Position numbers and translations under genes: made by a program
Shown here: positions 5,528-42,919 of the stretch, in pieces
Position numbering within the stretch: the first letter of the stretch is position 1
Layout of the letters: each line of letters starts with the position of its first letter
Notes under the pieces: generated by a model
Database searches by the model: none
What the model was told of the DNA's origin: nothing
The model's input: only the letters and a program-made list of their open reading frames with translations
Origin: Isoetes taiwanensis
Taxonomy: Eukaryota > Streptophyta > Lycopodiopsida > Isoetales > Isoetaceae
Direction of reading: 5' to 3'
Length of the DNA: 64,000 bases
Assembly: GCA_021234155.1 (NCBI GenBank)
Contig: JAJEKV010000016.1
Location: forward strand, 17,193,911 to 17,257,910

Positions 5528-6025
5528 AACAAAAGTATATTAATGAGGTTCTTCACGGGTTCAATATGGCAAATTGTAAGCCATCCAAATCTCCTCATGC
5601 TCCAGGCAATGTGTTAATTTTGGAGTTCTAAAAAGCAAGCTACTTGCAGTGTTAGTACTACTGAAGCAGAACTGAAAGCCATGGTTTATGCAGTCCAAGA
5701 AATGATGTGGTTGGTTCACTTATATGAAGATCTAGGTACCAAAGATGCACCAGCTTATCTTTACCGCGATAATGAGGGTGCTATTTGTCATGCTAAGCAT
5801 TACAAGTGGCATCATCTTACTAAACACCTGGATATTAAAGTCTGCTTTGTTCAAAAAACTCTTGACAATGCTTCTATTTCTCTGTATCATTGCTCTTCTC
5901 AAGACCAAGCAGCAGATGGTTGTACCAAACCTCTTGTAGGCATACACTTGGTCAATATGAAGCAGCTTTTACATGTGTTTCCTTTTAGTACTTCCAATTC
6001 CAGCAGTGCTAGTCATCAGGAGGGG
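5528..6025 (+). pseudogene. Degenerate copia RNase H (continuation of the interrupted host element)
   Basis: The + strand encodes the RNase H end of a copia pol: STTEAELKAM, EMMWLVHLYEDLG, then RDNEGAI, KHLDIKV and QAADGCTKPL. Everything between the RT block at 1-314 and this part has been deleted, as the intact junction in segment B shows. It ends in the purine tract aggagggg (6018-6025), directly before the 3' LTR. It is more complete here than in segment B, which lacks about 70 bp. Confidence 0.88.
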
Positions 6026-6205
6026 TATTAGACTCATGCTGACATGTCAGTGTTGACGTCACACTGCTGACCTGTCACTGCATGCCTTTTGCTGACATAG
6101 CATTTTAATATAAGCCACAGTCAAGCGTACTTAGCATCTTTTCTAGTTTTCGAGACATCTATCCTTGTATTCGTTTCGTCCACCACATATATTCATATAC
6201 GTTCA
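6026..6205 (+). repeat. 3' LTR of the degenerate copia element
   Basis: The 180-bp sequence follows the purine tract, starts TATTAGACTC (a decayed TG start) and ends CGTTCA. Its last 50 bases match the 5' LTR remnant at 28985-29038, which is followed by a primer site; that fixes the LTR end. The matching copy in segment B is 30757-30936. Confidence 0.75.
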
Positions 6206-6479
6206 CCATATGCATATAATCTTCTCATTCTTTAATATCATTTCTTATGCAATCATCAACGGATGGAGATCCTCATTTTATTAAGCAATCACTGATGTCT
6301 TTCGTCAACCCTTTGTTCTTGTTCATAAATGCAGCTTTGCATTGCATCCTTTATTTGATGCAGTGTCTTTGTGTAAATGCATCATCCCACGTTCTGTCAA
6401 CATCGTTTAATATGGTGTTTGCATTTAACTCTGAACTTCAAATAAAAGAACAGAAGGGACAACAGAAATAGCCCTCTGG
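6206..6479. other. No gene seen (274 bp)
   Basis: AT-rich sequence between two copia remnants, shared with segment B. A 74-codon open frame at 6247-6471 has no recognisable motif and is not called. Confidence 0.5.
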
Positions 6480-7660
6480 AGGGACAGAAGGGACAACAAG
6501 TAAGAGCTCCTTCACATGAACAACCAGAGAGATTTGGTAAAACCATCAGCTGCCTGATCCTTAGTTGAAAAGTAGGATACAAAAAGGGAACCATTGTCAA
6601 GCTGGTCCCTAATAAAGCAGAATTTGATATAAAGATGTTTCATCTGCAGATGCCACTTATAACCTTTGACAGGAACAATACTGCACTGCGGAACCATTGT
6701 CAAGCTGGTCCCTAATAAAGCAGAATTTGATATGAAGAGTTTCATCTGCAGATGCCACTTATAACCTTTGACAGGAACAATACTCCACTGTTGCCACGTA
6801 CATAAATAACTGCTGGTTTATGAGCACTCTTAAATCCTCAAATAGATGAGGACACCACATCATTCTTTGAACAGCCAAACTAGACTTCTTGTAGTTGAAT
6901 AAAAAACCCATTGATTTTCTGATGTCAGCAACGTAGAAACTCCTCTTGAGTCTACACCTAAGTAGGATGAGTTGGATCAGAAAACCTGGTGGACTTATAC
7001 AATTCCTCCCCAAGACCTCCATTGAGAAATGCAAACTTGAAGCCTAACTGATACAGTGGCCAGGCTTTATGAGCTGCCAAAGATATGACCCCTCTCAATG
7101 CGTCAAGCTGAAATACAGGAGCAAAAATCTCATTACAATCAGGCCCATCTTACTGAGTCACTAGTCTTGCCTTGTATTTTGAGAGAGTGGCATCAGCATG
7201 ATATCTTGTCCATTAGCATCAATCACATTCTTATTTGATGGGTTTAGGAACCAACTCTCAAGTACCTTGCTTCTGCAGCACGGAAAATTCTCAAGTGGCT
7301 CAGTCGGAACAGTAGTAGCATCTGATATGTTGCTCAGGAGGAACTTGTGCTGGAACAGAAACTGTTGGTAAAGAATTTTCATGATGAGAAGAGGCAATAC
7401 ATGGAATAAACGTCTCCCTTGATAAGGAATGACCAAGCTGAGGTATGGCAGAAATAAAAGATGAGCTAATTGAAGAAATCAGCAGCTGAGATAATGAATC
7501 ACCAATTTCTGAAGTATTGCAAATAAGCTTTTCATAATCTGTAGAATTGGACTGAGAAAAATCAGCAGAAAAGACGGCATCTTCCAAAAAATGCATGCTT
7601 CGAGAAGCAAATACTTTTTCTTGCTTAAAAAATTCAGTGATATCATAAACTAAAGCCATG
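6480..7660 (-). pseudogene. copia pol remnant: integrase tail, RT start and RNase H
   Basis: On the minus strand, from 7660 downward: a serine-rich linker of the kind after copia integrase (about 7300-7659), then PSNKNVIDAN and, in another frame, KARLVTQ, NEIFAPVFQLDALRG and FKFAFLNG (about 7020-7240), which is the RT start. The RT palm with the catalytic DD is deleted. RNase H follows with MMWCPHLFEDL (about 6835-6865), then MKHLYIKFCFIRDQLDNGSL and TKDQAADGFTK (about 6530-6660). Multiple stops and frame changes make it non-functional. The copy in segment B is at about 31215-32280. Confidence 0.85.
6587..6792. repeat. 103-bp tandem duplication (segment A only)
   Basis: The word ggaaccattgtcaagctgg starts at 6587 and again at 6690. 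The two units differ by a few bases. Segment B has a single unit at this place, so the duplication arose after the segmental copy, or was lost from B. Confidence 0.9.
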
Positions 7661-8038
7661 CACGGAGAGGCTCCATCTTGTGTGTCAACACCTGTAAAAT
7701 CTGAGGTTTGGGGGAAGGAATCGCAGGCAGCAACATATATGCAGTCTACTGCAGATATCCGTCTCTTGACCCACAGGAACCTTGCTCTTCATCTTTTTTC
7801 TACTGTCAAACTGATTCTGGATAAATCTGATTTCAAGAGAACTGCTACCCCTCCTGATCTCATTTACCTTTCTTCTGGCTTCTGTAGGCTGAGTCTCAAG
7901 AATAACCCGACACTTCTAGAAGACCAGTTTCTCTTTTTTCATGTGTTTCTAACAAAAAAAATAGTATCTCTATCCTTTATAAGGTCCATAAGACCGCTTG
8001 GATATTTATCTTACGGCTCCACTTTGATGGTCTCATAG
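7658..8038 (+). other. Open frame of 126 codons, function not recognised
   Basis: A + strand frame begins MHGEAPSCVST and runs to a stop at 8038. Its twin in segment B (32289-32627) is shortened by a 5-bp insertion-type change near its 3' end, so the end is not conserved. It abuts the copia remnant on the opposite strand by two bases. I see no domain, signal peptide or membrane segment. It is probably chance or transposon-derived. Confidence 0.2.
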
Positions 8039-10145
8039 ACCCTTGATTCCATTTTCTGGACCTTGTCACGGATGAAGACTCAGCCATCTCCCATTTAGTT
8101 GGATCTTTCCAAGCCTCTGCGACCTCTTACAAGTTCTCTCCTATTCTTGAGCCCATTCAACTATCCTCCAAGGTCTTAATTTAAAAACCTGTCCCCCAAG
8201 GTCTTAATTTTAAACAATGACTAAAGGCTGTCCTCTTGGATTGCCTTCGATTACACCCCAAGCAGCTTCAATTTTGGGATGTTGGCCACAAACTAATGGC
8301 TGTAGTGAGGGGATCAGCGACCATTCCAAGCCTAGGATTGCGTGCCCTTTTTTGGCATTGATTGCATCCTTTGCTGGCTTTTAACATATCAACCCATTTA
8401 GAAGTTTCTTCTTGATGGAAGTGAATCTCCAACTCAATCTGTTTCAATCATTCAATTGAAGGGAACTTCTGTATTGCTGCAGTTTCAGATTAAAAATTCT
8501 CCAATTCATCCAGGTTAGCCTGTTTAGATTCTTGTTTCCGAAAAGTCTAGCTCTAGAGTAAATTGCAAGAAGATGAAGAATGAGACATAACTATGTGGCT
8601 TATATAGTCAGAGCCATATCAGCAAAAGATAGATGAGCCAGCATGCATAGTCATCATAGCGTAAGTGTACACATGGAATATAAAGCATTCCAACAATATG
8701 CAATGTCATCTTACCAAATTCTCAACCCTAACTACAAGTAATACCTCTAAGTTGAGTGTAGTACTTCTCCTGCACGTGTAAGTGGTACTTTAGACTCTGA
8801 AGCACCTACCATATGAGGCCATAAAATGTATCTTGTCATTTGTCAACTTCCAGATATGATGATAGAGAAGGAAACAAAGCCTGACAAGAAATATTTATTG
8901 ATTTCCAAGTCATTCTAACCCTTCATAACAGCCTTTCCTATTTTAAATAAGTCATGATCTTCCAACTACAAGCTAAGCCACACTAAACTTTTTATATTTC
9001 AAATTCAAGTCTTTGATTCTAAGAAAAGTTGCTGGTTGATTATACATGAGGAAACCAATTTTCTGTACCAGGCATAGGAAACCTGTCTTTAGCTAAAGGA
9101 TTACTTCCAAATCACAATATGATCCAGTGAAAGCTCTTTAGATGGATTCATCATCTTGTTAGGAAGTTAGTTTATATTTCAAAGATTGTAAAACCAATTA
9201 GAGTTGTAATGTAATAATATACCCATTGATATGTATGCAGGGTGATTTAAGACTACCTAGAAGGCATATGCAGCTCCAAGCTAGCACCGCGTGACATGGC
9301 ATGGCATGGAGATTACACAGAGATTACAAGATCATCAAGTTATATTGGATTTTCACATTGAAGAACTTTTCTGTATAAAACCAATTTGATGAAGACCAAT
9401 ACAAAAAGGCCTTCCAAATCATGATAGCCAATTGTGTGTTTCTTATGATGCCATACATCTTGCATTTGATGCTTAGACACTGTAGATCCTTGAATCTAGA
9501 AGGCCTAACGCATCTAAGACAGAAGTTATTCTACTGCATTTTCTTTGTTTTGATGGTTTCTTTTAGAGATTTAAAGCATTTTCAAGCTCTAGTAATTCAA
9601 GCCTGCGTTATGCTTAAGCTACAAATGTTCAAGTAACAAACTAACCGCATGTTATAGTGCTCTAAGGATCGTAGAACCTAATTTCTCTTGTTTTCTAGCA
9701 AAAGGAAGGAGTGGATAAGCTTTCTGAACTGCATCTGAGGAATCCTAGAAGAACTTAGGACTCCTACATGCTTGAGATGCCCATACCTGCAGCATCTAGC
9801 TATAAATGGTTTAAAACTTGCTTCTTCAAACTTAATATATAATGTGGATGAGACTTTTTATCCCTTTCATTTTGCTTCTGGAAACTCTTCTCTACATCCG
9901 TTCACATCTTTCTATCTCATAGCTTTTAATTATGCTTAGGAAGCTATACCAAAGTGCCAGTTTTGAAAGGAAATCATTTTAGTCTTAATTCCCAGCATTA
10001 GTTAGGCTTTTAGTATTTGAAGTTAGCTCGCATTTTCAATTAATCACATCAATTGTTTGGGAGCAGGAGGCACTTTTGAGTTCTAGTAATGGACAAAAGG
10101 TAGATGGATTTGATGCTCGTGTCATTATACTCGTTTGCCTTTTAC
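8039..10145. other. 2.1 kb without a recognisable gene
   Basis: AT-rich, stop-rich sequence with homopolymer runs, near-identical in segment B (32640-34782). Some splice-like words are present (for example tatgcag at 9234) but no chain of coding exons could be followed. It may hold introns or the 3' part of the pseudogene at 10146-10891. Confidence 0.5.
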
Positions 10146-10891
10146 CTCAACCAGCTCCTTAAGCGAAATCAAGGGTTCTCTGCAATGACCTTAAAATAGC
10201 CACAATGAACAGTCTGAAGGGCTAACGCCTGTTGAGAAGGATGCGTGAGGATGCTTGCAAAGACCTATAATAAATTCCTGCATACTGCCTAAAAAGACAC
10301 CTTTCATCCCTATGAAAGTGAAATGACTTACATTCCGTACCTTTCTCAGAAGGTTTCCCTTTTCAGTTACACTCCTTATCCACCGATCAACTTTAGAACT
10401 CAAATCTTCATCTTCTACAAGCTGCGGCATAGGATATGACTTTCTAGGGAATGATCCAAACAGAATAGCATGGCATAGATTACAGGCCACTTGTTTATAA
10501 AGTGGGTAAACAGGTACTCCTTCCACCATAGATGATTCTAAATTGCCTGTGATAGTCCCAATTTACTCAAAAATTGATACCAAATAAAAAATTATCTACA
10601 GGCCAGATAAATTTACAGAGCCCATACCTCGACAGCATCCTTCAACTTCTTGCGTTCTTCTGATCCATCCGGTGGCAGGTTCAAACGCTCTAAGCAATGC
10701 AAATGGTCGCATGGATCGGGACGCAAAAGAGAGGCACAAAATGCTGAGGAAATGCAAAGGTCATGCTTATCGTCAGCTAGACATGATTCAAAAAATCTGC
10801 GAATTGATTCGGTGAGGATTAGTAGGAGCTCAGATGCATCGGGCTGGATAGGAGCTGAGCGCGGCGAATCTGGCCTCTCCACCATAGCCAT
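10146..10891 (-). pseudogene. Unidentified intron-containing gene fragment, copy A
   Basis: Three exon-like blocks on the minus strand. Exon 1 (10628-10891) starts MAMVERPDSPRSAP and ends at a GAG|GTATG donor; exon 2 (10341-10546) encodes VEGVPVYPLYKQVACNLCHA and ends AAG|GTACG; exon 3 (10146-10228) encodes ALALQTVHCGYFKVIAENP and ends before GTAAAA. The protein is not one I recognise; it looks like a large cytosolic repeat protein. Exon 1 to 2 is out of phase by one base here, while exon 2 to 3 is in phase. Exon 3 hits a stop, and a plus-one shift restores LISLKELVE, so a base is missing in both copies. Retained introns mean it came by DNA duplication, not retrocopying. Confidence 0.6.
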
Positions 10892-12239
10892 GCACCTCTT
10901 TCTATGGAATTTTGGAAATGAACGGAACCACATTCGTTATAGGGGATCCGAGGGTGCATCTTCTTCCACCCAAAACCACGTTCATTATTGGTTCGTTGTA
11001 ATGCCTTAAACATAGGCCTACTCGTTACATCCTCTACTCTTACATCCTGACCGTTCATTTAAAAAGAAATATTCTAGTGGATATTCCTCATCCTTCAACC
11101 TGGGAAGGAAAAGGGATTTTCCAGCTCACCCTAATATTTCATATCTATGGGAGCAGAGTCAATGATGCAGTCAATTTGGTGCAAAACAAATGAGAGTGCA
11201 AATTCTTGGTAATATTCTTGTGCCAAATGTGGAGGAATATACATAATAGAAAGCTTGAAACAACAACACACTTGCCATTGATTATCTGCCCAATTGAATA
11301 TCAACAGACATGGAATAAACTGTTCGAAATAATTAGCCAGCAATGAAGTGGATTTGAAATTCAATTTGAAGCCATAATAGAACACATGAAATAAGAAGCG
11401 TCCAACAGACAGACCATCCAAATGTCTCCTTGCGCCAAAGCAGAACCTGCAAGCATATGCAATCACATGGCAAAGCCCTTAAAAAAATTACAAGAGGCTT
11501 CAGGTCGCAGGAACTTCCCTATGGATGAAGTCGGCCTGCCACAGTTTGGAACTGACTTGTTGCAGCAAATAAGATTGCAAAAAGAAAGGAGATGAAGCAT
11601 GGGAATTTGAACCCCACTGAAATTCATCGGTCCCAATATGCTTCTCCTAGCATAATGCAATGCCCCAAAAGGCCCTACATTATGCTAGAGGGTTAATCCC
11701 ATGCACTTCTCAATCAAACATATGAAAATGCAAGTTCTTTTGCATTGTCGTACTTTTCAAAAAAGCTTCACCTAAAACAAGCAACAAAGAAACCACCCAA
11801 TTTCTTCCTTAAAATGGAAAGAACCGTCAAAGCCATTGGGCGGACATAAGCAGATAACATAGGAGGAAAACATGGGCTATAGATACATTAGAAGCAAACA
11901 CATTATATCCTTCAAATCAATATGCTAAAACAACAAACCCTCGATGGCAAAAACGTTGTTGAACATTGCAATGGCAAACCATGCTATGGCAAAAGCGCTG
12001 TAAAAATGTCGGGGCCTCATCAACCACTAACGCCCACCCTCCTGCCTTGCCTGCTGCAAGACCTCGGCAATATTCTTCCCTTCGATTACAACATGTTGGA
12101 GAAACAAAATTCAATGGATCAGACTCGCTTAATAATGGAAATGAATAATCAACATACAGAAAGGGGACGCACCACCATGTTAGAAATCATCTTGTAACTT
12201 CCATAAATGAAGGACCCACTAAACCTAACAACACTTCCT
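10892..12239 (-). other. Upstream of the pseudogene; one exon-like open frame, otherwise nothing clear
   Basis: An open frame at 11131-11466 (-) follows a tgcag acceptor and in one frame reads VLLWRKETFGWSV, faintly like the start of a reticulon domain, but the similarity is too weak to call. It is conserved in segment B (35809-36144). Short overlapping frames at 11917-12197 occur in both segments with changed ends and are not believed. Confidence 0.25.
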
Positions 12240-12960
12240 CTAAATTGTGAATTTGTTAATATTCTCTAGCATAACTATATTGCTTGAGACAAACTGCAAA
12301 TCAAAACTAAACTTCAACATGCAGTGGATGTAAAGCATATGAGTGCTTTGTAATTTCAACTTGTCTTGAATACAAAACATGTCTTGTAATCTTTTCGTCA
12401 TGCCCGTCTCCTCGAGGCACTCATTGTGTCCTTTTCTTCCAAGAGGTTTGGTGAAGACGTTAGCTGTCATGAAATGAGCTTTCAATGCTTGATCATGATT
12501 TTTCCTTCCTCCACCTTTTCTCTAGAAAAGTGATATTGAATCCAAATATGCTTTGCCTTAGTGAAGTTGTTGGGGTTTTTAACCAAGCACATAACTGCTT
12601 TGTTATCATTAAAGATCATGTAGGTCTTTTCTACTCTGCTCCTATCTTCTTCAACGCCCTAACCAGATGGCTTCTTTTGAAGCTGCACATATGGCCATAT
12701 ACTCTGATTCCATTGTGCTTACAGAAGTACTTAGTTTTCTGCCTTTTACTTGATGAATTGACTACTTCCCCTTGCAGTTTAAAACAGAAGCCATTTCTCA
12801 TTTTTCTATGCTCCAATTCCCTTGCATATTCGCATTAATATAGTCCTCCAAGGGTAGAAGACGATTATCTTTGGTCTAACAGATGCCAAAACATGTGGTA
12901 TATATTTCATATACCTGAGAATGTGCTTCATGACCAATGTAAAAAACTGGCGTTTTCTAT
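12240..12960 (-). pseudogene. copia RNase H remnant
   Basis: On the minus strand, allowing frame changes, the order is NSSSKRQKTK, TMESEYMAICAASKEAIW, then TIFNDNKAVMCLVKNPNNFT and KAKHIWIQYHF, then ANVFTKPLGRKGH near 12430. This is the C-terminal RNase H of a third copia family, different from the two above. At least three frame breaks are needed to read it. Segment B has the same remnant at 36924-37645. Confidence 0.82.
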
Positions 12961-19960: not shown

Positions 19961-20170
19961 TTTATTTTGCTATTTGACGCAACTCATGGGTTCTTGCATT
20001 TGTTCTTTGGTCTTTTCAGGGTGAGGAAAAAGATGTGTGCATTCGGATTTCTTCGTCAGGGACTGGTCATCCGTGTCGGTGTATAGCCCACAGGCAATCC
20101 CTCGAGAGCGTTTCTCATTAGGATTCCTCAAAAACCCGAAAGGGCGGGGTAAATTGGTGTGCGTGTATCG

Positions 20171-21138
20171 GAGTCCTCATCACGAGAATTCTCGATTATT
20201 CTTAGGATAATTTTGATTAGGTATAATTCTGGTTAGACATAATCCTGGTTAGATATAATTTTAGATAATTCTTAGGTTAGGTATAATTCTTAGGTTAAAT
20301 AAGATAATTCTGGATTAATGTAGACATAATTTAGGCATAGATGGGTATAATATCTGTTGCAAGTAATGTAGCATTTTGCAAGCAGGTATAGCAGGTATAT
20401 ATTTTCTTGTTTATTGAAGCTTCTTTTTGGCCTTTTATAGTTCTATTTCTTCTTCCGGAATAGCGAAATTACAAAACCATCCTTTAATTTGGTACTTGAA
20501 GACGATGCCGATGACACTCTTGATGGCGAGGTTCCTAGCAGTTTTGTCACGCCCGAAGAACTTGAGGAAATCTTGGCAGGACTCTGTGATGGAGAAGTCA
20601 GTGAGGATCAAGATGCTCCTCAAGATGATTGTATTCCACTTGACGAAGATATGCTATCTGATGCCCTATCCGGGTGAACATGAACATCCCAAAGGTGCGA
20701 ACAAGTGGGCAAAATGCAGATTCGATGAGTGGAGGAAGGCATTTAATCATGATGTTTAACTGCCCGCTTGAGACGATTTTGATGCATCGGTTGAATGAGC
20801 TGCTGATGAGATTCATGTTGCACGTCTTTTTTTTTATATTATTTGTATTCTGCTATTTAATGTAAAAAACTAATAATATGGTGTTTTACTTGCTGGGTCT
20901 TTATTTGCAGGCAAAGAAGAAAAAACAAGAAGCTTTATCTACTAGCGACGTAAGTTTTAAATATTGTTTATGTAATATTTTTTTCATTGCACATTTTTAT
21001 ATCTTGTTTTTGTTTTAGGTTAAGTTGTTTGTTCCATGGAATTGGTAGAATAGTGAGAAGGGAGAGGGAGAAGTTCAGGAAAAAACAAGGATATCTTTTC
21101 AGATTTTACATGATTCGATTTTAAACACCAGCAGTGAG
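20171..21138 (+). repeat. Tandem duplication of the DUF3504 gene 5' part, unit 1
   Basis: The unit starts gagtcctcatcacgagaatt and matches 21301-22270 with a period of 1130 bp. It carries an AT-rich leader with imperfect repeats of ttaggtataattct (20205-20345), the N-terminal coding exon and a 39-bp second exon. Similarity ends near acatgattcgatttt. Confidence 0.92.
20427..20960 (+). pseudogene. Duplicated N-terminal exons of the DUF3504 gene, broken copy
   Basis: The frame encodes an acidic leader (DADDTLDGEVPSSF, TPEELEEILAGL, EDQDAPQDDCIPLDEDML). One extra base near 20670 then produces a stop, where unit 2 reads on into SGGHERPKGANKWAKCRFDEW. The next frame also carries a stop where unit 2 has HDVYVLLETIL. 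A second exon, AKKKKQEALSTSD, lies between a tttgcag acceptor and a gtaagtt donor (20911-20949). This is a dead duplicate of the exons at 21590-22085. Confidence 0.7.
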
Positions 21139-21300
21139 GTAGCCCAATCATGATGTTATTATCATTTTTTCCTTATATGGGCTAGTTCGATATTGTGCCT
21201 ATGGTTGGCTACCCCACTGACTTCAATATTATAAACCCAATGTATATTGCTACTGTGATAAATGAAAAGCCTATCTGGTGTTTTGGTCTTCGTATATCGC

Positions 21301-22270
21301 GAGTCCTCATCACGAGAATTATCGATTATTCTTAGGATAATTTTGATTAGGTATAATTAATCCTCGTTAGATATGATTCTGGTTAGATATAATTTTAGAT
21401 AATTCTTAGGTTAGGTATAATTCTTAGGTTAAATAAGATAATTCTGGATTAATGTAGATATAATTTAGGCATAGATAGGTATAATGTCCATTGCAAGTAA
21501 TGTAGCATTTTGCAAGCAGGTATAGCAGGAATATATTGTTTGGTTTATTGAAGCTTCCTTTTAAGCCTTTTATAGTTCTCGCTTCTTCCGTCGGGAATAG
21601 CGTAAATTACAAAACGTCCTTTAATTTGGTACTTGAAGGCGATGCCAATGACACTCTTGATGGCGAGGTTCCTAGCAGTTTTGTCACGCCCGAAGAACTT
21701 GAGGAAATCTTGGCAGGACTCTGTGATGGAGAAGTCAGTGAGGATCAAGATGCTCCTCAAGACGATTGTATTCCACTTGACGAAGACATGCTATCTGATG
21801 CTCTATCTGGTGGACACGAACGTCCCAAAGGTGCAAACAAGTGGGCAAAATGCAGATTCGATGAGTGGAGGAAGGCATTTAATCATGACGTTTATGTCCT
21901 GCTTGAGACGATTTTGATGCACCGGTTGAATGAGCTGCTGATGAGATTCATGTTGCACATTATTTTTTTCATATTATTTGTATTCTGCTATTTAATGTGA
22001 AAACTAATAATATGGTGTTTTACTTGCTGGGTCTTTATTTGCAGCCAAAGAAGAAAAAACAAGAAGCTTTATCTACTATAGCGACGTAAGTTTTAAATAT
22101 TGTTTATGTAATATCATTGCACATTTTTATATCTTGTTTTTGTTTTAGGTTAAGTTGTTTGTTCCATGGAATTGGTAGAATAGTGAGAAGGGAGAGGGAG
22201 AGAGTTCAGAAAAAAAACAGGGATATCTTTTGAGATTTTACATGATCCAATTTTTAGGAGCAGTCGTGAG
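21301..22270 (+). repeat. Tandem duplication of the DUF3504 gene 5' part, unit 2
   Basis: Second unit of the 1130-bp-period duplication. Unlike unit 1 its N-terminal frame is open, and it runs directly into the body of the gene at 22250, so it is the copy still attached to the gene. Confidence 0.92.
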
Positions 22271-23655
22271 GCTTTTATTTGTGCTATCAAAAAGACAAGG
22301 GAGGAGGGAAACTATGATAAACCCAGGAATAAGGCTCCAGTAATAACCACCTTGAAGAACATGACATCTTGGCTGATATAGATCACCAAGTGACTCATCT
22401 ATCAAGATGCATCAAATGTTTAGCATATTATATGCTTACGAGATTCGGGATTAGGGGCGCAAAGGAGTTGTGCGATGTCTTAGATTGTGGTGTGTGCTTA
22501 GGCATTGATATGGATGGTGAAATCATTAAGTATGGAGAGAGAATAAGTAAGAACCATCAGTCTACTGTTACGAAGTTTAATTCGGAAACTTGTTTGGACA
22601 TATGCGTCTAATTTTATTCTCATCTATAAACAATACGTGCCATTTACCTGCAAAAAGAAGCAGGGCTCGAAGGCGAGGGCATTATTTTTTCAGCCAATTC
22701 TCCGACCTGGAAAAAATGTAAGCCATTTCTTATATAAGTTTTTTTATTTATGATATTATTTTAATTGCATGTCTTTTTTTTGGATCTGGTATGATGTTAC
22801 ACCTGTCGGAAAGAACAACCTATTCAAATGGTTGAATGTCATGGCCACCATCATTGGTCTTGAGACACAAATATGTAATAAGGGTGGTCACGTGTCTTTG
22901 GTTTCTCGTTTGTCGGCTGCAAATGTTACAGTGGAGGTCAGGATGAACCTTATGGGCCATAAGAACCGTGATTCTTATGACAAGCAAGTAATCTATTTTG
23001 AATTGTGTTTTCTGTTTTTCTTGTTTATTGTTAAGGTTCTTGTTAGTTTTCCTCGCATGTATGATCAAAACCTTGATTTGAAGATCGATGGATGTATAGA
23101 TCTGGTCTCAAAGCCAATTATTGTTGATGGCACGACAAGATGTTTTACAAATGTGCTTTTGATAGTAATCTGTCATAATGAATTCTTTATTATGTCTTTA
23201 CATTTCTTATTCTCTCTTCTGTCATAATGAATTCTGGTATTTGCAGATGAGGTTTCTAAAGTCGATTTACTGGCAGTGGTTATAGAGTTGCACTTGGGGA
23301 GTTGGAGAAAAATGTAGTTGTGCAGGGATCGTCTTCAAGAGTTTTGAGAGCTGCTGACATGGTGCAACGGGAAAATATCTTACCTGTATCTATGGCTCCA
23401 AAGTCAGATTGTCAATCAGGTTAGCAACTTTTTGTTGTTGATAATTCTGCTCAGATAGTCAGTGGTAATTGTGCTAAGGTCTACTGTGAGTTGGTCAAGG
23501 ATGAATATGACAAGGATTTCTATAAGCAGCTTATTGTGGACTGCACGAAGGGTGCACGGGCACTTGGAATGTACCAGTCACAGGTTATGAGCAATTCTGA
23601 GGCGTTCGTAGGTTGTACAATCAATCTAGGTATCGATGCAAATCAGCTTTTATAA
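21590..23655 (+). pseudogene. DUF3504 / ZMYM-QRICH1-type (Crypton-like) tyrosine recombinase family protein, multi-exon, frameshifted
   Basis: Exon order on the + strand: an acidic leader, then KGANKWAKCRFDEWRKAF and LNELLMRFMLH (to about 21958), the N-terminal box of this family; a 39- to 42-bp exon (to 22087, gtaagtt donor); then REAFICAIKKTREEGNY and NKAPVIT (22262-22345); LEEHDILADID, LTRFGIRGAKELCDVLD (22355-22610); YKQYVPFTCKKK and ALFFQPILRPGKN before gtaagcc (22612-22720); VTPVGKNNLFKWLNVMATII, NKGGHVSLVSRL and NLMGHKNRDSYDK (22795-22985). This is the recombinase core. The first Arg and the GH are kept, but the HxxR site reads K-x-x-H, so catalysis is unlikely. Frames shift near 22350 and 22608. 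Later exons (23247-23420, 23440-23655) encode an unrecognised tail ending IDANQLL. It may be a domesticated gene with errors or a pseudogene. Confidence 0.65.
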
Positions 23656-25208
23656 GTTATTTCTGCAATCATGATGACGTAGTGATAGGTTGTACATTCT
23701 GTATTTTTGAGTTGTAATTCAACTTGTGGAATTTGAAGGAACTTGTAGATTTATGAATTCAATGAACTTCTGACATATAGAAGTTCTAAACTTGTGGATA
23801 TATTTGGACTTATAAACTTTTGGACTCATTCTAGATTTGAACTTTGTGTATTTCAATTTAATTCAATTTCTATAATGCGTGTGATATAAATGTAATAGGA
23901 TTATAAATGTGTAATAGTTTTAGTGTATAACATGCACAATTTGATTGATAATTTGTGTGTATAAACTATATGTGTAGTAATCTATGTAGCTACACTCACG
24001 AAAAAATTTTAAAGTGGTGGAAAACAATCCTGGTGGACGAAAAATTCCGTTCTTAATTTAGATAGAATTTTAAAGTAATCCCAGCCCATTGTTTTACGTG
24101 TTCATTCGTGGTTCATTTTGAAGTTCTAATAAATTTCATTCTTAAAGTTCTTCCTTCCAATAAATTTCCTGCAATCGTCACCTTCTATTGGATGTGTATA
24201 GTAATCTTCTGGATGGAGGAGGTTATGTAGGCATGAGCAAGCTCATGAAATTCATATCTCCCAAAGTCCCAAGTGTCCAAGATCTCATTTTGTCAAGCAC
24301 ATTCACATTCGCTTACGTTGTCCCCATCAGCTGCTCACCCCTCCTCCAGGCTTTTCACACCAAGTCTTCACAGTCAAGTCAGTGTTGAATATGGCAAGAG
24401 CCGTCCACCGCATAAGGTCCAAAAAGTGACTTCCATCCAACAGGACTGGATCAGCTCAATTCATCATTCTAAACATTATACAGAAGGTTTTTTCCGTACC
24501 AGCCTCTCCTCCTACCTATGCAGCAGCAGAAGCACCTAAAGAAGAAAAAGGGTGTTCCTAGCCCCCGTGACAAACATGTTGAGGGCCTCTCAAGGCACTG
24601 GTCACTTCCGAAACAAGATAGGAGCATTTCTGCACTAAAACTTACATGCATCTTCATCTAGAATGCAACAAATATTAACGTCAAAAAAGTTGCAATTTGC
24701 CTACAAGAATTGTTGTTACCAAAAACATTGGTTTTCTTTTCTTTGGAGGAGGGATAAGATTGGCTCAGTATGTTGACATGCATCAGAGGTGCTTTATTTC
24801 AAGAAATCAACTTGATTATCCAAGAGTGTTTGTCCATCACCAATATCTTGTGTTGTCACCTTGTTCTGTGATACACGCAAGGCACCATTCCATCAGCTTA
24901 GTAATTGCAAAATGTAGAAAGCTCCAAACCAAAATAACCCACTAGCTAAATTGGCATTCCGTACAGCTGGGAAATAAGCCCTCATGTGGCTCATGCTTAT
25001 CTCAACCTGAAAGATTGCAGAAATTGCACAACCCATTTCTCAAGAACAAAGCATCCAATAATTGTCGTGTCCTATGCACCCATTCCTGCTATCAATTGAT
25101 GCATCACTAGCATCTTGCACACAGTCCAGCAAGTAAGTGGATCTCATCCAGTTACGAAAACTTTCGATGTGAACTTGGCTAAAGACGGAACCTGGCTAAA
25201 CATAATCC
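23656..25208. other. 1.55 kb intergenic, no gene seen
   Basis: The first 400 bp are very AT-rich with tgtgtataa-like words, in keeping with a 3' UTR and downstream region of the preceding gene. Beyond 24190 there are short open frames on both strands (for example 24188-24388 and 24697-24945 on +) with no motif. Two genes converge on this interval. Confidence 0.5.
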
Positions 25209-30032: not shown

Positions 30033-30756
30033 ATATGTTTATAAGTTGAAGAAGAGTCTGACCTAAAACAGGCACCTAGATGCTGGCATCAAAAGATCAA
30101 TGCTTTTCTTATTGATCTTGGTTATCAATGATCACGTGGTGATTGCAATTTGTACTACGAGACTGAGGGGTCTAAGCTTTCTTATCTTACTGTTGTATGT
30201 AGATAACATGGTCCTTATAGGAGATGCTCTTGATCTCATTATAAGTACTTGGTAACCACTTTGCAATTGATGAACTTGGTCTAATACACTACTGTTTAGG
30301 TTTGGAAGTCTGGCAGCAACCTCATGACGTGGCATTTTTCTATCCCAACAAAAGTATATTAATGAGGTTCTTCACGGGTTCATTATGGCAAATTGTAAGC
30401 CATCCAAATCTCCTCATGATCCAGGCAATGTGTTAATTTTGGAGTTCTAAAAAGCAAGCTACTTGCAGTGTTAGTACTACTGAAGCAGAACTGAAAGCCA
30501 TGTTTATGCAGTCCAACAAATGATGTGGTTGGTTCACTTATATGAAGATCTAGGTACCAAAGATGCACCAGCTTATCTTTACCGCAATAATGAGGGAGCT
30601 ATTTGTCATGCTAAGCATTACAAGTGGCTTCTATTTCTCTGTATCATTGCTCTTCTCAAGACCAAGCAGCATATGGTTCTACCAAACCTCTTGTAGGCAT
30701 ACACTTGGTCAATATGAAGCAGCTTTTACATGTGCAGTGCTAGTCATCAGGAGGGG
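30033..30756 (+). pseudogene. copia RT and RNase H fragments, segment B copy
   Basis: The same reading as 1-314 plus 5528-6025, here uninterrupted by the young element. It lacks about 70 bp of RNase H between AKHYKW and the LYHCSSQDQA block and about 20 bp near the end, so it is more decayed than the segment A copy. Confidence 0.85.
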
Positions 30757-30936
30757 TATTAGACTCATGCTGACATGTCAGTGTTGACGTCACACTGCTG
30801 ACCTGTCACTGCATGCATTTTGCTGATATAGCATTTTAATATAAGCCACAGTCAAGCGTACTTAGCATCTTTTCTAGTTTTTGAGACATCTATCCTTGTA
30901 TTCGCTTCGTCCACCACATATATTCATATGCGTTCA
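30757..30936 (+). repeat. 3' LTR of the degenerate copia element, segment B
   Basis: 180 bp, same ends as 6026-6205, with a few substitutions. Confidence 0.75.
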
Positions 30937-31214
30937 CCATATGCATATAATCTTCTCATTCTTTAATATCATTTCTTATGCAATCATCAACAGATGGAGA
31001 TCCTCATTTTATTAGGCAATCACTGATGTCTTTCGTCAACCCTTTGTTCTTGTTCATAAATGCAGCTTTGCATTGCATCCTTTATTTGATGTAGTGTCTT
31101 TGTGTAAATGATGCATCATCCCACGTTCAGTCAACATCGTTTAATAAGGTGTTTGCATTCTAACTCCAATCTTCAAATAAAAGAACAGAAGGGACAATAG
31201 AAATAGCCCTCTGG

Positions 31215-32280
31215 AGGAACAGAAGGGACAACAAGTAAGAGCTCCTTCACATGAACAACCAGAGAGATTTGGTAAAACCATCAGCTGCCTGATCCTTAGT
31301 TGAAAAGTAGGATACAAAAAGGGAACCATTGTCAAGCTGGTCCCTAATAAAGCAGAATTTGATATAAAGATGTTTCATCTGCAGATGCCACTTATAACCT
31401 TTGACAGGAACAATACTCCACTGTTGCCACGTACATAAATAACTGCTGGTTTATGAGCACTCTTAAATCCTCAAATAGATGAGGACACCACATCATTCTT
31501 TGAACAGCCAAACTAGACTTCTTGTAGTTGAATAAAAAACCCATTGATTTTCTGATGTCAGCAACATAGAAACTCCTCTTGAGTCTACACCTAAGTAGGA
31601 TGAGTTGGATCAGAAAACCTGGTGGACTTATACAATTCCTCCCCAAGACCTCCATTGAGAAATGCAAACTTGAAGCCTAACTGATACAGTGGCCAGGCTT
31701 TATGAGCTGCCAAAGATATGACCCCTCTCAATGCGTCAAGCTGAAATACAGGAGCAAAAATCTCATTACAATCAGGCCCATCTTACTGCGTCACTAGTCT
31801 TGCCTTGTATTTTGAGAGAGTGGCATCAGCATGATATCTTGTCCATTAGCATCAATCACATTCTTATTTGATGGGTTTAGGAACCAACTCTCAAGTACCT
31901 TGCTTCTGCAGCACGGAAAATTCTCAAGTGGCTCAGTCGGAACAGTAGTAGCATCTGATATGTTGCTCAGGAGGAACTTGTGCTGGAACAGAAACTGTTG
32001 GTAAAGAATTTTCATGATGAGAAGAGGCAATACATGGAATAAACGTCTCCCTTGATAAGGAATGACCAAGCTGAGGTATGGCAGAAGTAAAAGATGAGCT
32101 AATTGAAGAAATCAGCAGCTGAGATAATGAATCACCAATTTCTGAAGTATTGCAAATAAGCTTTTCATAATCTGTAGAATTGGACTGAGAAAAATCAGCA
32201 GAAAAGACGGCATCTTCCAAAAATGCATGCTTGAGAAGCAAATACTTTTCCTTGCTTAAAAAATTCAGTGATATCATAAA
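31215..32280 (-). pseudogene. copia pol remnant, segment B copy
   Basis: Counterpart of 6480-7660 with a single 103-bp unit in place of two. It has the same RT start, deleted palm and RNase H blocks, and small indels near 32220-32250 alter the linker frame. Confidence 0.85.
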
Positions 32281-34782
32281 CTAAAGCCATGCACGGAGAG
32301 GCTCCATCTTGTGTGTCAACACCTGTAAAATCTGAGGTTTGGGGGAAGGAATCGCAGGCAGCAACATATATGCAGTCTACTGCAGATATCCGTCTCTTGA
32401 CCCACAGGAACCTTGCTCTTCATCTTTTTTCTACTGTCAAACTGATTCTGGATAAATCTGATTTCAAGAGAACTGCTACCCCTCCTGATCTCATTTACCT
32501 TTCTTCTGGCTTCTGTAGGCTGAGTCTCAAGAATAACCCGACACTTCTAGAAGACCAGTTTCTCTTTTTTCATGTGTTTCTAACAAAAAAAATAGTATCT
32601 CTATCCTTTATAAGGTCCATAAGATAAGACCGCTTGGATATTTATCTTACGGCTCCACTTTGATGGTCTCATAGACCCTTGATTCCATTTTCTGGACCTT
32701 GTCACGGATGAAGACTCAGCCATCTCCCATTTAGTTGGATCTTTCCAAGCCTCTGCGACCTCTTACAAGTTCTCTCCTATTCTTGAGCCCATTCAACTAT
32801 CCTCCAAGGTCTTAATTTAAAAACCTGTCCCCCAAGGTCTTAATTTTAAACAATGACTAAAGGCTGTCCTCTTGGATTGCCTTCGATTACACCCCAAGCA
32901 GCTTCAATTTTGGGATCTGAGATGCCTAAAGTGTTGGCCACAAACTAATGGCTGTAGTGAGGGGATCAGCGACCATTCCAAGCCTAGGATTGCGTGCCCT
33001 TTTTTGGCATTGATTGCATCCTTTGCTGGCTTTTAACATATCAACCCATTTAGAAGTTTCTTCTTGATGGAAGTGAATCTCCAACTCAATCTGTTTCAAT
33101 CATTCAATTGAAGGGAGCTTCTGTATTGCTGCAGTTTCAGATTAAAAATTCTCCAATTCATCCAGGTTAGCCTGTTTAGATTCTTGTTTCCGAAAAGTCT
33201 AGCTCTAGAGTAAATTGCAAGAAGATGAAGAATGAGACATAACTATGTGGCTTATATAGTCAGAGCCATATCAGCAAAAGATAGATGAGCCAGCATGCAT
33301 AGTCATCATAGCGTAAGTGTACACATGGAATATAAAGCATTCCAACAATATGCAATGTCATCTTACCAAATTCTCAACCCTAACTACAAGTAATACCTCT
33401 AAGTTGAGTGTAGTACTTCTCCTGCGTGTAAGTGGTACTTTAGACTCTGAAGCACCTACCATATGAGGCCATAAAATGTATCTTGTCATTTGTCAACTTC
33501 CAGATATGATGATAGAGAAGGAAACAAAGCCTGACAAGAAATATTTATTGATTTCCAAGTCATTCTAACCCTTCATAACAGCCTTTCCTATTTTAAATAA
33601 GTCATGATCTTCCAACTACAAGCTAAGCCACACTAAACTTTTTATATTTCAAATTCAAGTCTTTGATTCTAAGAAAAGTTGCTGGTTGATTATACATGAG
33701 GAAACCAATTTTCTGTACCAGGCATAGGAAACCTGTCTTTAGCTAAAGGATTACTTCCAAATCACAATATGATCCAGTGAAAGCTCTTTAGATGGATTCA
33801 TCATCTTGTTAGGAAGTTAGTTTATATTTCAAAGATTGTAAAACCAATTAGAGTTGTAATGTAATAATATACCCATTGATATGTATGCAGGGTGATTTAA
33901 GACTACCTAGAAGGCATATGCAGCTCCCAAGCTAGCACCGCGTGACATGGCATGGCATGGAGATTACACAGAGATTACAAGATCATCAAGTTATATTGGA
34001 TTTTCACATTGAAGAACTTTTCTGTATAAAACCAATTTGATGAAGACCAATACAAAAAGGCCTTCCAAATCATGATAGCCAATTGTGTGTTTCTTATGAT
34101 GCCATACATCTTGCATTTGATGCTTAGACACTGTAGATCCTTGAATCTAGAAGGCCTAACGCATCTAAGACAGAAGTTATTCTACTGCATTTTCTTTGTT
34201 TTGATGGTTTCTTTTAGAGATTTAAAGCATTTTCAAGCTCTAGTAATTCAAGCCTGCATTATGCTTAAGCTACAAATGTTTCCGCATGTTATAGTGCTCT
34301 AAGGATCGTAGAACCTAATTTCTCTTGTTTTCTAGCAAAAGGAAGGAGTGGATAAGCTTTCTGAACTGCATCTGAGGAATCCTAGAAGAACTTAGGACTC
34401 CTACATGCTTGAGATGCCCATACCTGCAGCATCTAGCTATAAATGGTTTAAAACTTGCTTCTTCAAACTTAATATATAATGTGGATGAGACTTTTTATCC
34501 CTTTCATTTTGCTTCTGGAAACTCTTCTCTACATCCGTTCACATCTTTCTATCTCATAGCTTTTAATTATGCTTAGGAAGCTATACCAAAGTGCCAGTTT
34601 TGAAAGGAAATCATTTTAGTCTTAATTCCCAGCATTAGTTAGGCTTTTAGTATTTGAAGTTAGCTCGCATTTTCAATTAATCACATCAATTGTTTGGGAG
34701 CAGGAGGCACTTTTGAGTTCTAGTAATGGACAAAAGGTAGGTGGATTTGATGCTCGTGTCACTATACTCGTTTGCCTTTTAC
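32281..34782. other. 2.5 kb, counterpart of 7660-10145, no gene secured
   Basis: Contains the same + strand open frame (32289-32627), ended earlier than in A by an indel, and the same AT-rich spacer. Confidence 0.5.
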
Positions 34783-35528
34783 CTCAACCAGCTCCTTAAG
34801 CGAAATCAAGGGTTCTCTGCAATGACCTTAAAATAGCCACAATGAACAGTCTGAAGGGCTAACGCTGTTGAGAAGGATGCGTGAGGATGCTTGCAAAGAC
34901 CTATAATAAATTCCTGCATACTGCCTAAAAAGACACCTTTCATCCCTATGAAAGTGAAATGACTTACATTCCGTACCTTTCTCAGAAGGTTTCCCTTTTC
35001 AGTTACACTCCTTATCCACCGATCAACTTTAGAACTCAAATCTTCATCTTCTACAAGCTGCGGCATAGGATATGACTTTCTAGGGAATGATCCAAACAGA
35101 ATAGCATGGCATAGATTACAGGCCACTTGTTTATAAAGTGGGTAAACAGGTACTCCTTCCACCATAGATGATTCTAAATTGCCTGTGATAGTCCCAATTT
35201 ACTCAAAAATTGATACCAAATAAAAAATTATCTACAGGCCAGATAAATTTACAGAGCCCATACCTCGACAGCATCCCTTCAACTTCTTGCGTTCTTCTGA
35301 TCCATCCGGTGGCAGGTTCAAACGCTCTAAGCAATGCAAATGGTCGCATGGATCGGGACGCAAAAGAGAGGCACAAAATGCTGAGGAAATGCAAAGGTCA
35401 TGCTTATCGTCAGCTAGACATGATTCAAAAAATCTGCGAATTGATTCGGTGAGGATTAGTAGGAGCTCAGATGCATCGGGCTGGATAGGAGCTGAGCGCG
35501 GCGAATCTGGCCTCTCCACCATAGCCAT
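34783..35528 (-). pseudogene. Unidentified intron-containing gene fragment, copy B
   Basis: Same three exon blocks as 10146-10891. Exon 1 (35264-35528) is one base longer than in A, a C inserted near 35276, so exon 1 to 2 is in phase here. At the exon 3 acceptor one G is missing (aacagcgttag against aacaggcgttag), which breaks the exon 2 to 3 phase that A keeps. The exon 3 stop is shared. The retained introns and shared lesion show the gene was already dead before duplication. Confidence 0.6.
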
Positions 35529-36923
35529 GCACCTCTTTCTATGGAATTTTGGAAATGAACGGAACCACATTCGTTATAGGGGCACATTCGTTATAGGGGA
35601 TCCGAGGGTGCATCTTCTTCCACCCACTTCCTTTCAATAATAAACCACGTTCATTATAGGTTCGTTGTAATGCCTTAAACATACTCGTTACATCCTATAC
35701 TCTTACATCCTGGCCGTTAATTTAAAAAGAAATATTCTAGTGGATATTCCTCATCCTTCAACCTGGGAAGGAAAAGAAATGGGGTCAAATTGGATTTTCC
35801 AGCTCACCCTAAGATTTCATATCTATGGGAGCAGAGTCAATGATGCAGTCAATTTGGTGCAAAACAAATGAGAGTGCAAATTCTTGGTAATATTCTTGTG
35901 CCAAATGTGGAGGAATATACATAATAGAAAGCTTGAAACAACAACACACTTGCCATTGATTATCTGCCCAATTGAATATCAACAGACATGGAATAAACTG
36001 TTCGAAATAATTAGCCAGCAATGAAGTGGATTTGAAATTCAATTTGAAGCCATAATAGAACACATGAAATAAGAAGCTTCCAACAGACAGACCATCCAAA
36101 TGTATCCTTGCACCAAAGCAGAACCTGCAAGCATATGCAATCACATGGCAAAGCCCTTAAAATAATTACAAGAGGCTTCAGGTCGCAGGAGCTTTCGTAT
36201 AGATGAAGTCGGCCTGCCACAGTTTGGAATTGACTTGTTGCAGCAAATAAGATTGCAAAAAGAAAGGAGATGAAGCATGGGAATTTGAACCCCACTGAAA
36301 TTCATCGGTCCCAATATGCTTCTCCTAGCATAACACAATGCCCCAAAAGGCCCTACATTATGCTAGAGGGTTAATCCCATGCACTTCTCAATCAAACATA
36401 TGAAAATGCAAGTTCTTTTGCATTGTCGTACTTTTCCATCCAAAAAAGCTTCACCTAAAACAAGCAACAAAGAAACCACCCAATTTCTTCCTTAAACTGG
36501 AAAGAACCTTCAAAGCCATTGGGCGGACATAAGCAGACAACATAGGAGGAAAACATGGGCTATAGATACATCAGGAGCAAACACATTATATCCTTCAAAT
36601 CAATATGCTAAAACAACAAACCCTCGATGGCAAAAACGTTGTTGAACATTGCAATGGCAAACCATGCTATGCCAAAAGCGCTGTAAAAATGTCGGGGCCT
36701 CATCAACCACCAACGCCCACCCTCCTGCCTTGCCTGCTGCAAGACCTCGGCAATATTCTTCCCTTCGATTACAACATGTTAGAGAAACAAAATTCAATGG
36801 ATCAGACTCGCTTAATAATGGAAAATGAATAATCAACATACAGAAAGGGGACGCACCACCATGTTAGAAATCATCTTGTAACTTCCATAAATGAAGGACC
36901 CACTAAACCTAACAACACTTCTT
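35529..36923. other. 1.4 kb, counterpart of 10892-12239
   Basis: A short local duplication ggcacattcgttatagggg (about 35581-35599) is present only in B. The exon-like frame of A recurs at 35809-36144 with a few changes. Nothing is identified. Confidence 0.4.
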
Positions 36924-37645
36924 CTAAATTGTGAATTTGTTAATATTCTCTAGCATAACTATATTGCTTGAGACAAATTGCAAATCAAAACTAAACTTCA
37001 ACATGCAGTGGATGTAACGCATATGAGTGCTTTGTAATTTCAACTTGCCTTGAATACAAAACATGTCTTGTAATCTTTTCATCATGCCCATCTCCTCGAG
37101 GCACTCATTGTGTCCTTTTCTTCCAAGAGGCTTGGTGAAGACATTAGCTGTCATGAAATGAGCTTTCAATGCTTGATTACGATTTTTCCTTCCTCCACCT
37201 TTTCTCTAGAAAAGTGATATTGAATCCAAATATGCTTTGCCTTAATGAAGTTGTTGGGGTTTTTAACCAAGCACATAACTGCTTTGTTATCATTAAAGAT
37301 CATGGTAGGTCTTTTCTACTCTGTCCTATCTTCTTCAACGCCCCAACCAGATGGCTTCTTTTGAAGCTGCACATATGGCCATATACTCTGATTCCATTGT
37401 GCTTACAGAACTACTTAGTTTTCTGCCTTTTACTTGATGAATTGACTACTTCCCCTTGCAGTTTAAAAGCGGATGCGGTTCTCATTTTTCTATGCTCCAA
37501 TTCCCTTGCATATTCGCATTAATATAGTCCTCCAAGGGTAGAAGACGATTATCTTTGGTCTAACAGATGCCAAAACATGTGGTATATATTTCATATACCT
37601 AAGAATGTGCTTCATGACCAATGTGAAGAACTGGCATTTTCCATG
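36924..37645 (-). pseudogene. copia RNase H remnant, segment B copy
   Basis: Counterpart of 12240-12960 with the same NDNKAVMCLVK and FTKPLGRKGH blocks and its own small indels (for example at 37305-37330). Confidence 0.8.
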
Positions 37646-41650: not shown

Positions 41651-42919
41651 AAAATAAGAAAATACTTAAAAAAATAAAAAATAAAAAAATCATTTTGTTA
41701 AGATAGTTTTACCTTATGTATATAAGGCAGTCTTGGCATGACCCCCTTGGATTCACCTAAGCATAACTTCCAAGAATGGAAGTAGATAGATTCTTAGATA
41801 TTTTTCATATGGAATATGATTGCCATATATGAACTTCTAGGAAGGGTTTTATTGAATTTTGAGCCATTGATTTTATATGAATTTTAAAGTGAACAGTGCA
41901 AATGCACCATTTTTGGTCCATCATCTGACAATTCTAGTGCTAATGCGGGGCGACTTCATTGGTGAAAGCCAACCCATTTGCCTCACATCGAATAACGGAG
42001 AGTGGAGAAACCTATAGACTGCCCGATTGATATATTGGATGGTACAAAGCAGAATATACCTCCAACCCAATACCAAAGCAAGGGTTTGCCCTTCAAGCAA
42101 CCCAAAAAGAAACACAGTAGTCAAAATAGCCATCTAAAATTGAGCATGTACAAAGGGTGAAGCGGAATGCCGTGAATTTAGATTTAGAATTTTATTTTGC
42201 TTTAAGAATGGACTTTTTGTCTTCATTCTTTATGTTATTTGTTGTTCAATCACTTATTGTGCTACATGACAGTCTCAAAAATGTATAATATGGTGATCCC
42301 AACTCGGTGGGAACTCACTAAATTCTTTTGCCATTAAATCGATCTGGGGCGTGATCCCAAGGATGAATTTTGTGAGAAATACCAAAGCTTTGTAAGAATC
42401 AAAGTCAAAATATGAAGGAAGTCTTGGATATGAACTCTGTAATTTTTAGATTAGATGGAAAAAGATGAGTGCGAATCATCAATCGATGATAGGAAGTATA
42501 TATAGAGGCGGGCTATATGTGTTAAGTGTATATGGAGGATAAATATCAAAAATGTGGGAGTTAGGAATGGTGGAACACGAGGGGGAGTGGCGACAAACAT
42601 CTAACATCGACATTAAAAGCAACTAACATGACAATACTAAAATAATAATAATCCAATTAGGCAGCTAACATCTAACATTCGAACATCTAACATAAACAAT
42701 ACCAAAATAATAATAATCGATTAGGCGGATGTGTAATCCGAGTGCATCAATATGGGAGATGCGATTAAAGCGAACCAACTGGCGAATCAAGTTAGGGATA
42801 GTTAGAGATAGTTACTACCCATCGGTGGTATGTGTAGATAGTATGAAACGGCACACACAAAAAACGTAAAAACAAGGGTAAACACAAAGGAAGAAAAGGA
42901 ATACGGAATAAGATACGGG
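41651..42919. other. AT-rich spacer of unit 1
   Basis: Contains aataataataat runs and repeated ctaacatctaacat words. A minus-strand frame (41921-42133) reading LALVLGWRYILLCTIQYIN is conserved in all four units but not recognised. It may be the remains of another element. Confidence 0.5.

Follow-up and report, generated by a model that had tools for sequence, protein, structure and literature searches.

A dead copy of a probable Crypton-type tyrosine-recombinase transposon family of new build in the quillwort Isoetes taiwanensis

The question raised by this locus is whether a plant genome contains a DUF3504-type tyrosine recombinase of its own and, if so, whether the gene is a domesticated host gene or the remains of a transposon. 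The locus lies in a stretch of 64,000 nucleotides (the window) on contig JAJEKV010000016.1 of Isoetes taiwanensis, where a reading made from the sequence only had placed, at 21590-23655, a Crypton-like recombinase relative that was either domesticated or decayed. We conclude that it is probably a dead member of subfamily A, which belongs to a large family of Crypton-type DNA transposons of new build that encode a tyrosine recombinase. Six-frame translation of 21590-23655 gives the blocks from KWAKCRFDEW to SYDK on the forward strand and in the order proposed, spread over several frames with candidate GT-AG introns between them, an order that we take to be shared with the animal DUF3504 genes. 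A Pfam scan of the window exons and of a read-through protein returned no DUF3504 or integrase match, so the window alone does not prove the family, and the link comes from its relatives.

These relatives are numerous in the host genome (1,658,258,908 bases in 1110 contigs). DNA searches with the window stretch gave 63 matches (40 of 80 candidates scored), the best three besides the window itself being 95%, 94%, and 78% identical; at the protein level, 198 matches reached E ≤ 1 (with 150 of 1597 candidates scored), and subfamily D gave 194 at E ≤ 0.01, large scaffolds included (130 of 1069 scored). Matches were counted exon by exon, so that loci are fewer than matches, and most candidates are unscored. 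Given the 63 DNA matches and the open exons in relatives (L006, L020, and L021) that are homologous to the main catalytic exon of the window, the intron-split set of blocks is not a product of chance. Grouping by eye, not by a tree, divides the copies into five subfamilies: A (that of the window), B (L025-L028), C (L029-L031), D (L001, L002, and L095), and E (L092-L094), with pairwise identity between subfamilies of only 33-41%. Full-length elements of A-C measure ∼3.2-3.6 kb. Copies are spread over many multi-megabase scaffolds of up to 53 Mb; the family is multicopy, dispersed, and large.

This distribution bears on contamination of the assembly by animal- or fungus-like DNA, which the sequence-only reading had named as fatal to its proposal. 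The first two DUF3504 matches do sit on small contigs, but copies occur on scaffolds of up to 53 Mb, subfamily D is found on large scaffolds too, and in the window the copy stands beside copia-like frames (the window holds both copia- and LINE-like frames, names assigned by eye, LINE denoting long interspersed nuclear element), so that contamination is extremely improbable. The recombinase had been contrasted with what is known from seed plants; the host is indeed a plant, albeit a lycophyte and not a seed plant.

Homology of the encoded enzyme is clearest in subfamilies D and E. Two six-frame genome matches of D exceed the Pfam DUF3504 cut-off, and a spliced D protein scores 33.2 bits (cut-off 29.7) while also matching Phage_integrase at 3.4e-5, below the cut-off for that family. 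The E-type frames, open for 417-449 amino acids, include one (L092) that passes Phage_integrase with 31.5 bits (cut-off 27.1) and two (L093 and L094) that remain under it with 25.4 and 22.7 bits. Profile alignment connects A-C with D (hhalign probability 99.2, E 1e-19, over 246 columns reaching through Tyr), and DUF3504 is weakly detected in four of nine A-C rows (best E 7.8e-4). The sequence SYKRYDKSG is unbroken in E, which supports the exon joint set just before Tyr in A, B, and C. Similarity to XerA-like proteins in NCBIfam is sub-threshold only, and the GCR1_C domain of CryptonF is absent from the Pfam scan results. Among viral contigs, none of 42 pattern matches was confirmed as a relative, and phage records gave two weak matches that cover 14-18% of the query, one of which lies beneath an annotated integrase. 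By homology, the family encodes a DUF3504/Crypton-type tyrosine recombinase; some of its members pass the Phage_integrase or DUF3504 thresholds, and a tyrosine recombinase of this kind is a mark of the Crypton superfamily. The Pfam comparison suggested alongside the sequence-only reading is thus negative for the window copy and positive for D (DUF3504) and L092 (Phage_integrase), and the central proposal, a recombinase of this type in a plant host, is borne out by these relatives.

Residue counts were taken over loci L001-L095 minus six overlapping loci (L013, L015-L018, and L023), with L003, L004, and L005 being segmental duplicates and hence not independent. Arg I is kept in 45 of 49 loci, the hairpin Lys in 46 of 47, and Arg II in 38 of 48; the Lys of KxxR stands at the usual place of His in 46 of 49, and the His/Trp position holds His (24/46) or Gln (20/46). 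Tyr is kept in 46 of 46, a count biased by the fact that a match had to reach Tyr to be included. Of the R-H-R-Y tetrad, both Arg residues and Tyr are therefore mostly retained with Lys at the His place, as judged from sequence alone. Among 15 chosen open-frame pairs, the ratio of nonsynonymous to synonymous substitution rates (dN/dS) could be computed for 11, with values of 0.05-0.43, the other four being saturated at synonymous sites; the recombinase frames are under purifying selection. Because R..K..K-x-x-R..Y is mostly kept and the animal DUF3504 genes have lost Tyr and the second Arg, the family is no domesticate of the ZMYM/QRICH1 kind. Strand transfer had earlier been thought unlikely, as in the animal domesticates; this suits the window copy, which is probably dead, but not the family, which mostly keeps Arg II and Tyr.

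Whole-element DNA searches recover copies that begin and stop at shared places, as well as short internal-deletion derivatives. Sharp ends are known for A, B, and C. Right ends of C read TTTACG in 11 of 11 (L029 and C910 being one insertion) and those of B in six of eight readable, the rest being TTTAAA and TTTATA and a ninth (L047) having lost its end; among 11 A ends, seven finish in TTACG and one in TTACA, L083 and L089 differ further, and L090 is without an end. Inverted repeats of 26-31 bp lie just inside the ends in all three subfamilies, the left one being subterminal, 47-171 nt from the left boundary (15 copies measured), and the intervening nucleotides are mostly a foldback whose sequence is unlike among A, B, and C. 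Folding of the left 120 nt reaches z ≤ -3 in 16 of 22 copies and ≤ -6 in 11 of 22, the foldback being lost in some (e.g., z -0.7 and +0.4); of 150 random window 120-mers, two reach -3 and none -6. The right ends (n = 13, z-scores from mononucleotide shuffles) mostly fold more weakly, with two A ends at about -5 and one C end at -4.3. Nine B copies were compared, and in six of them the stem shows three pairs changed on both sides (columns 10, 17, and 20), one pair that has become G-T, and four broken in single copies, one of them by a gap. Deletion derivatives of ∼1-1.7 kb retain the ends of C (L032-L036) and B (L046 and L047, the latter with the left end only).

Empty sites were sought with the joined flanks at 18 copies (10 C, 6 B, and 2 A; 17 distinct insertions), and as only 40 of 1822 candidates were scored, a missing empty site does not show absence. 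An uninterrupted paralogue was found for eight copies, namely C974, L031, C1054, and L033 of C and C996, C1049, L027, and C1007 of B. At all eight, which represent B and C only, no target base is duplicated and the insertion point immediately follows a T-rich stretch whose last base is G. This stretch remains to the left of the element (AATATG, ATTTTG, ATTATG, TCCACG, GGTTG, etc.) and the element supplies TTTACG on the right. Two empty paralogues differ from the filled site nearby, C996 by a 6-base gap beside the junction and C1007 by a 14-base indel ∼20 bases to its left. Cut-and-paste transposition by a DDE enzyme was rejected on these eight sites without target duplication. The target of L027, a B element on C1037, is a pair of ACCAATAGTAAAGACTATTCAT-like repeats, and as the same pair is present in the empty paralogues, these repeats are not a target duplication.

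Left junctions were read at 25 ends (10 C, 9 B, and 6 A), of which 22 were counted, C910 being the L029 insertion and two A ends (L082 and L091) misfitting the search pattern. Their 6-mers agree with TTTACG at 3.86 of 6 positions on average, compared with 1.61 for flanking 6-mers (0 of 100000 resamples), and 21 of 22 end in G; 19 of 22 differ from the 6-mer of the element itself, and the other three are exactly TTTACG. In C this G might be the element's first base, but the target supplies it in four of four C empty sites, which places the crossover at one point, just after G. Over these 22 junctions, the elements loosely show the short (4-6 bp) terminal direct repeats that are taken as crossover sequence in Cryptons.

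Empty sites also separate the two halves of the earlier alternative. A domesticated Crypton-derived host gene family could have been amplified by segmental duplication, its mobile-looking ends coming from other repeats; the window copy does lie within a segmental duplication, whose counterparts on C974 and C943 are 94-96% identical over 5 kb, so that its recent doubling is not transposition, and the purifying selection would also suit a host gene. However, empty sites at 8 of the 18 copies tested, internal-deletion derivatives with the same ends, and high match counts speak against such a family, and we consider it very unlikely. The decayed copy is what stands of the alternative; the domesticate is set aside by the multicopy, dispersed nature of the family, its empty sites, and its largely retained R..K..K-x-x-R..Y.

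From left to right, an A-C element at full length consists of a terminal foldback, a left inverted repeat, one intron-containing recombinase gene, and a right inverted repeat ending in TTTACG or ATTACG. We propose that the recombinase, presumably the element's own, would join both element ends into a circle, and that the circle joint would then recombine with a T-rich stretch of the chromosome that finishes in G, leaving the target stretch in place on the left and the element's TTTACG as the right junction with no target bases duplicated. The junctions observed are those expected if a tyrosine recombinase joins element ends and exchanges them with a target of loose similarity; A would move like B and C, and the foldback would have a role in the process. 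Circle joints were modelled for seven elements (three B, three C, and one A) chosen among copies with an intact foldback, and all seven models show pairing between the left and right inverted repeats, with the foldback stacked above them and a small asymmetric loop next to the joint. Mixed junctions might arise from repair after a classical exchange with a 6-bp overlap; a crossover point that is fixed, taken with the foldback, points to exchange of a single folded strand or to a cruciform, and A-C may accordingly recombine through a folded, attC-like site, either as one folded strand in the manner of integrons or as a cruciform. We put this forward tentatively and with some doubt because biased repair could also give a fixed crossover point. 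Folded-site recombination, if true, would represent a way of transposing that is new to eukaryotes.

Several results weigh against a Crypton-type family. Single D exons of L095, on a 9.3 Mb scaffold, are below both Pfam cut-offs when scanned one by one. When solved structures were searched, A-C had no match, E had one unrelated match, and D matched only DNA polymerase IV (E about 4e-4 over 66 residues), which is taken as spurious. The catalytic His is replaced by Lys across the family, B has Gln at the His/Trp position, and in a separate count of D and E, Tyr is present in 10 of 11, L001 having His instead. Neither of the two A insertions has an empty site among the candidates scored; the left terminus of the window copy was looked for and not found, nor was the left end of E, for which a pattern search of the left repeat gave 13 matches, all at or beside E right ends. 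The 26-31 bp inverted repeats of A-C, the left one subterminal behind a terminal foldback, are unlike known Cryptons (CryptonF, S, A, and I), in which inverted repeats are not a feature (PMC3212892). In Helitron2 the inverted repeats are asymmetric, hairpins are present, and the target is as a rule not duplicated (PMC3627910, PMC5148889).

On this basis, the elements could be Helitron2-like rolling-circle units mobilized in trans by RepHel and carrying a Crypton-type gene, captured long ago, as cargo. Viewed from the opposite strand, A-C have one inverted repeat at the 5' end, another immediately before a 3' terminal hairpin, and no target duplication. This comes close to the description of Helitron2, for which compensatory changes in the ends are reported too (PMC3627910). 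Helitron Rep is also abundant in the genome, with at least 150 matches (all 150 candidates scored, of 1813). Some of these Rep domains are in open frames of over 1000 amino acids. However, in three full-length elements (A, B, and C) every frame of at least 90 amino acids is either a recombinase exon or a short one not exceeding 153 amino acids, and no RepHel was recognized among their frames, the minor ones not having been Pfam-scanned; two minus-strand frames of B (109 and 153 amino acids) contain H-x-H. The likeness of the right end to the target stretch is in line with site-specific recombination, and the recombinase keeps its catalytic residues despite the low identity between subfamilies. 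Selection on the recombinase counts against cargo status, and repeats of 26-31 bp with 47-171 nt between boundary and repeat are longer than in Helitron2, for which 8-15 bp and 20-30 bp are stated (PMC3627910). We therefore regard rolling-circle mobilization as improbable, and the recombinase is unlikely to be Helitron cargo. Helitron1 was rejected from the ends as read, which show no TC or CTRR termini and no A-T target.

Within the preferred Crypton-type family, the window copy is probably a dead member of subfamily A with a decayed, intron-split gene (Table 1). Translation in all frames confirms the two frameshifts reported earlier and puts both in the main catalytic exon. The earlier K-x-x-H assignment is likewise correct for this copy, with Lys at 22880-22882 and His at 22889-22891 where the family has K-x-x-R, and the acceptor before the Tyr exon reads GCAT, compared with GCAG in L006; this box and the lost splice acceptor are why we take the copy to be dead. 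The right limit proposed at 23655 is too short, as the element runs on to 24098. Doubling of the 5' part, seen upstream of the window copy, is present in its relatives L004 and L005 as well. The C943 paralogue (L004:4012-4040, compared with window 24087-24100) reads TTTATTACG and continues for ∼20 more bases up to a second TTTACG; this end is shorter in the window copy, as though by deletion between two like motifs.

Table 1. Features of the subfamily A copy in the window
Feature	Position	Strand	Basis and remarks
Upstream duplicate of the element's 5' part	20154..21139	+	92% identical to 21283-22271, blastn
First recognisable exon: acidic N-terminal part, KWAKCRFDEW, LNELLMRF	21617..21952	+	tblastn, L003:1528-1863; taken as the core-binding side of the recombinase
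Main catalytic exon with two frameshifts; FGIRG (Arg I codon 22453-22455), hairpin Lys of RISKN	22149..22720	+	L003:2060-2631
Exon with K-x-x-H box (family K-x-x-R) and GHKN-SYDK	22799..22987	+	L003:2710-2898; GHK His 22958-22960
Catalytic Tyr codon (YDQNLDL) of next exon	23060..23062	+	position read in the sequence
C-terminal exon(s)	23323..23652	+	L003:3234-3563
Right terminal inverted repeat ending ..CCCATTGTTTTACG; element's right end	24074..24098	+	ends of relatives

Elsewhere in the window, 6003-12438 and 30734-37122 form a segmental duplication with a spacing of ∼24.6 kb and 98-100% identity in the listed pieces, to which a further match (1-300 / 30033-30332) belongs. A tandem array at 41068-54768 comprises three to four copies of ∼3.85 kb units with frames resembling LINE-type reverse transcriptase. 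Neither Rfam nor tRNA searches of the window gave a match.

The family would place an abundant and diverse Crypton-type recombinase radiation inside a vascular plant, with DUF3504-type enzymes that are undomesticated and apparently mobile. With it, a eukaryotic element of the tyrosine-recombinase type has ends, targets, and empty sites that are defined, and circular versus folded-strand recombination becomes a directly testable question. Loose target matching by a tyrosine recombinase would also be of interest to genome engineers.

Among known systems, the integron attC cassettes of bacteria combine a tyrosine recombinase with a folded site. Bacterial SE elements have a tyrosine recombinase and strand-biased circularization, and no inverted-repeat motif was detected in the attachment sites of SE-6945 (PMC9345347). 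The single crossover point of the Isoetes elements would fit one-strand exchange as in these systems, which differ in being bacterial; in Isoetes a folded or single-strand route is one that we infer. Helitron2 and Helentron resemble A-C in asymmetric terminal inverted repeats, a terminal hairpin, usually no target duplication, and a T-rich target (PMC3627910, PMC5148889). Unlike them, the three Isoetes elements have no recognized RepHel and have longer repeats and foldbacks, and the target motif of A-C adjoins the foldback end and is similar to the opposite end of the element.

For land plants, nothing beyond one entry in a survey table turned up in the open-access literature searched, which does not imply absence from print; that table lists Crypton as present in all groups studied, land plants included, without detail (PMC4438587). 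According to an Arabidopsis review, no Cryptons have been described in that plant (PMC7385966), and one DUF3504 protein is mentioned in a green-algal mitochondrion (PMC3212892). The animal DUF3504 genes (ZMYM2/3/4, QRICH1, KIAA1958, KCTD1, and WOC) have the same domain, which is over the Pfam cut-off in subfamily D, and they are conserved host genes that have lost Tyr and the second Arg (PMC3212892). The Isoetes family is unlike them in being multicopy and apparently mobile with Tyr and the second Arg mostly kept. From Cryptons it differs in the Lys that replaces the His of HxxR, in its several introns, and in its lycophyte host. Features in common with Cryptons are a transposase of the tyrosine-recombinase type, short repeats at the termini that are regarded as the crossover sequence, and the lack of target duplication, and most CryptonS ends are TATGG, like several left junctions of subfamily C (PMC3212892).
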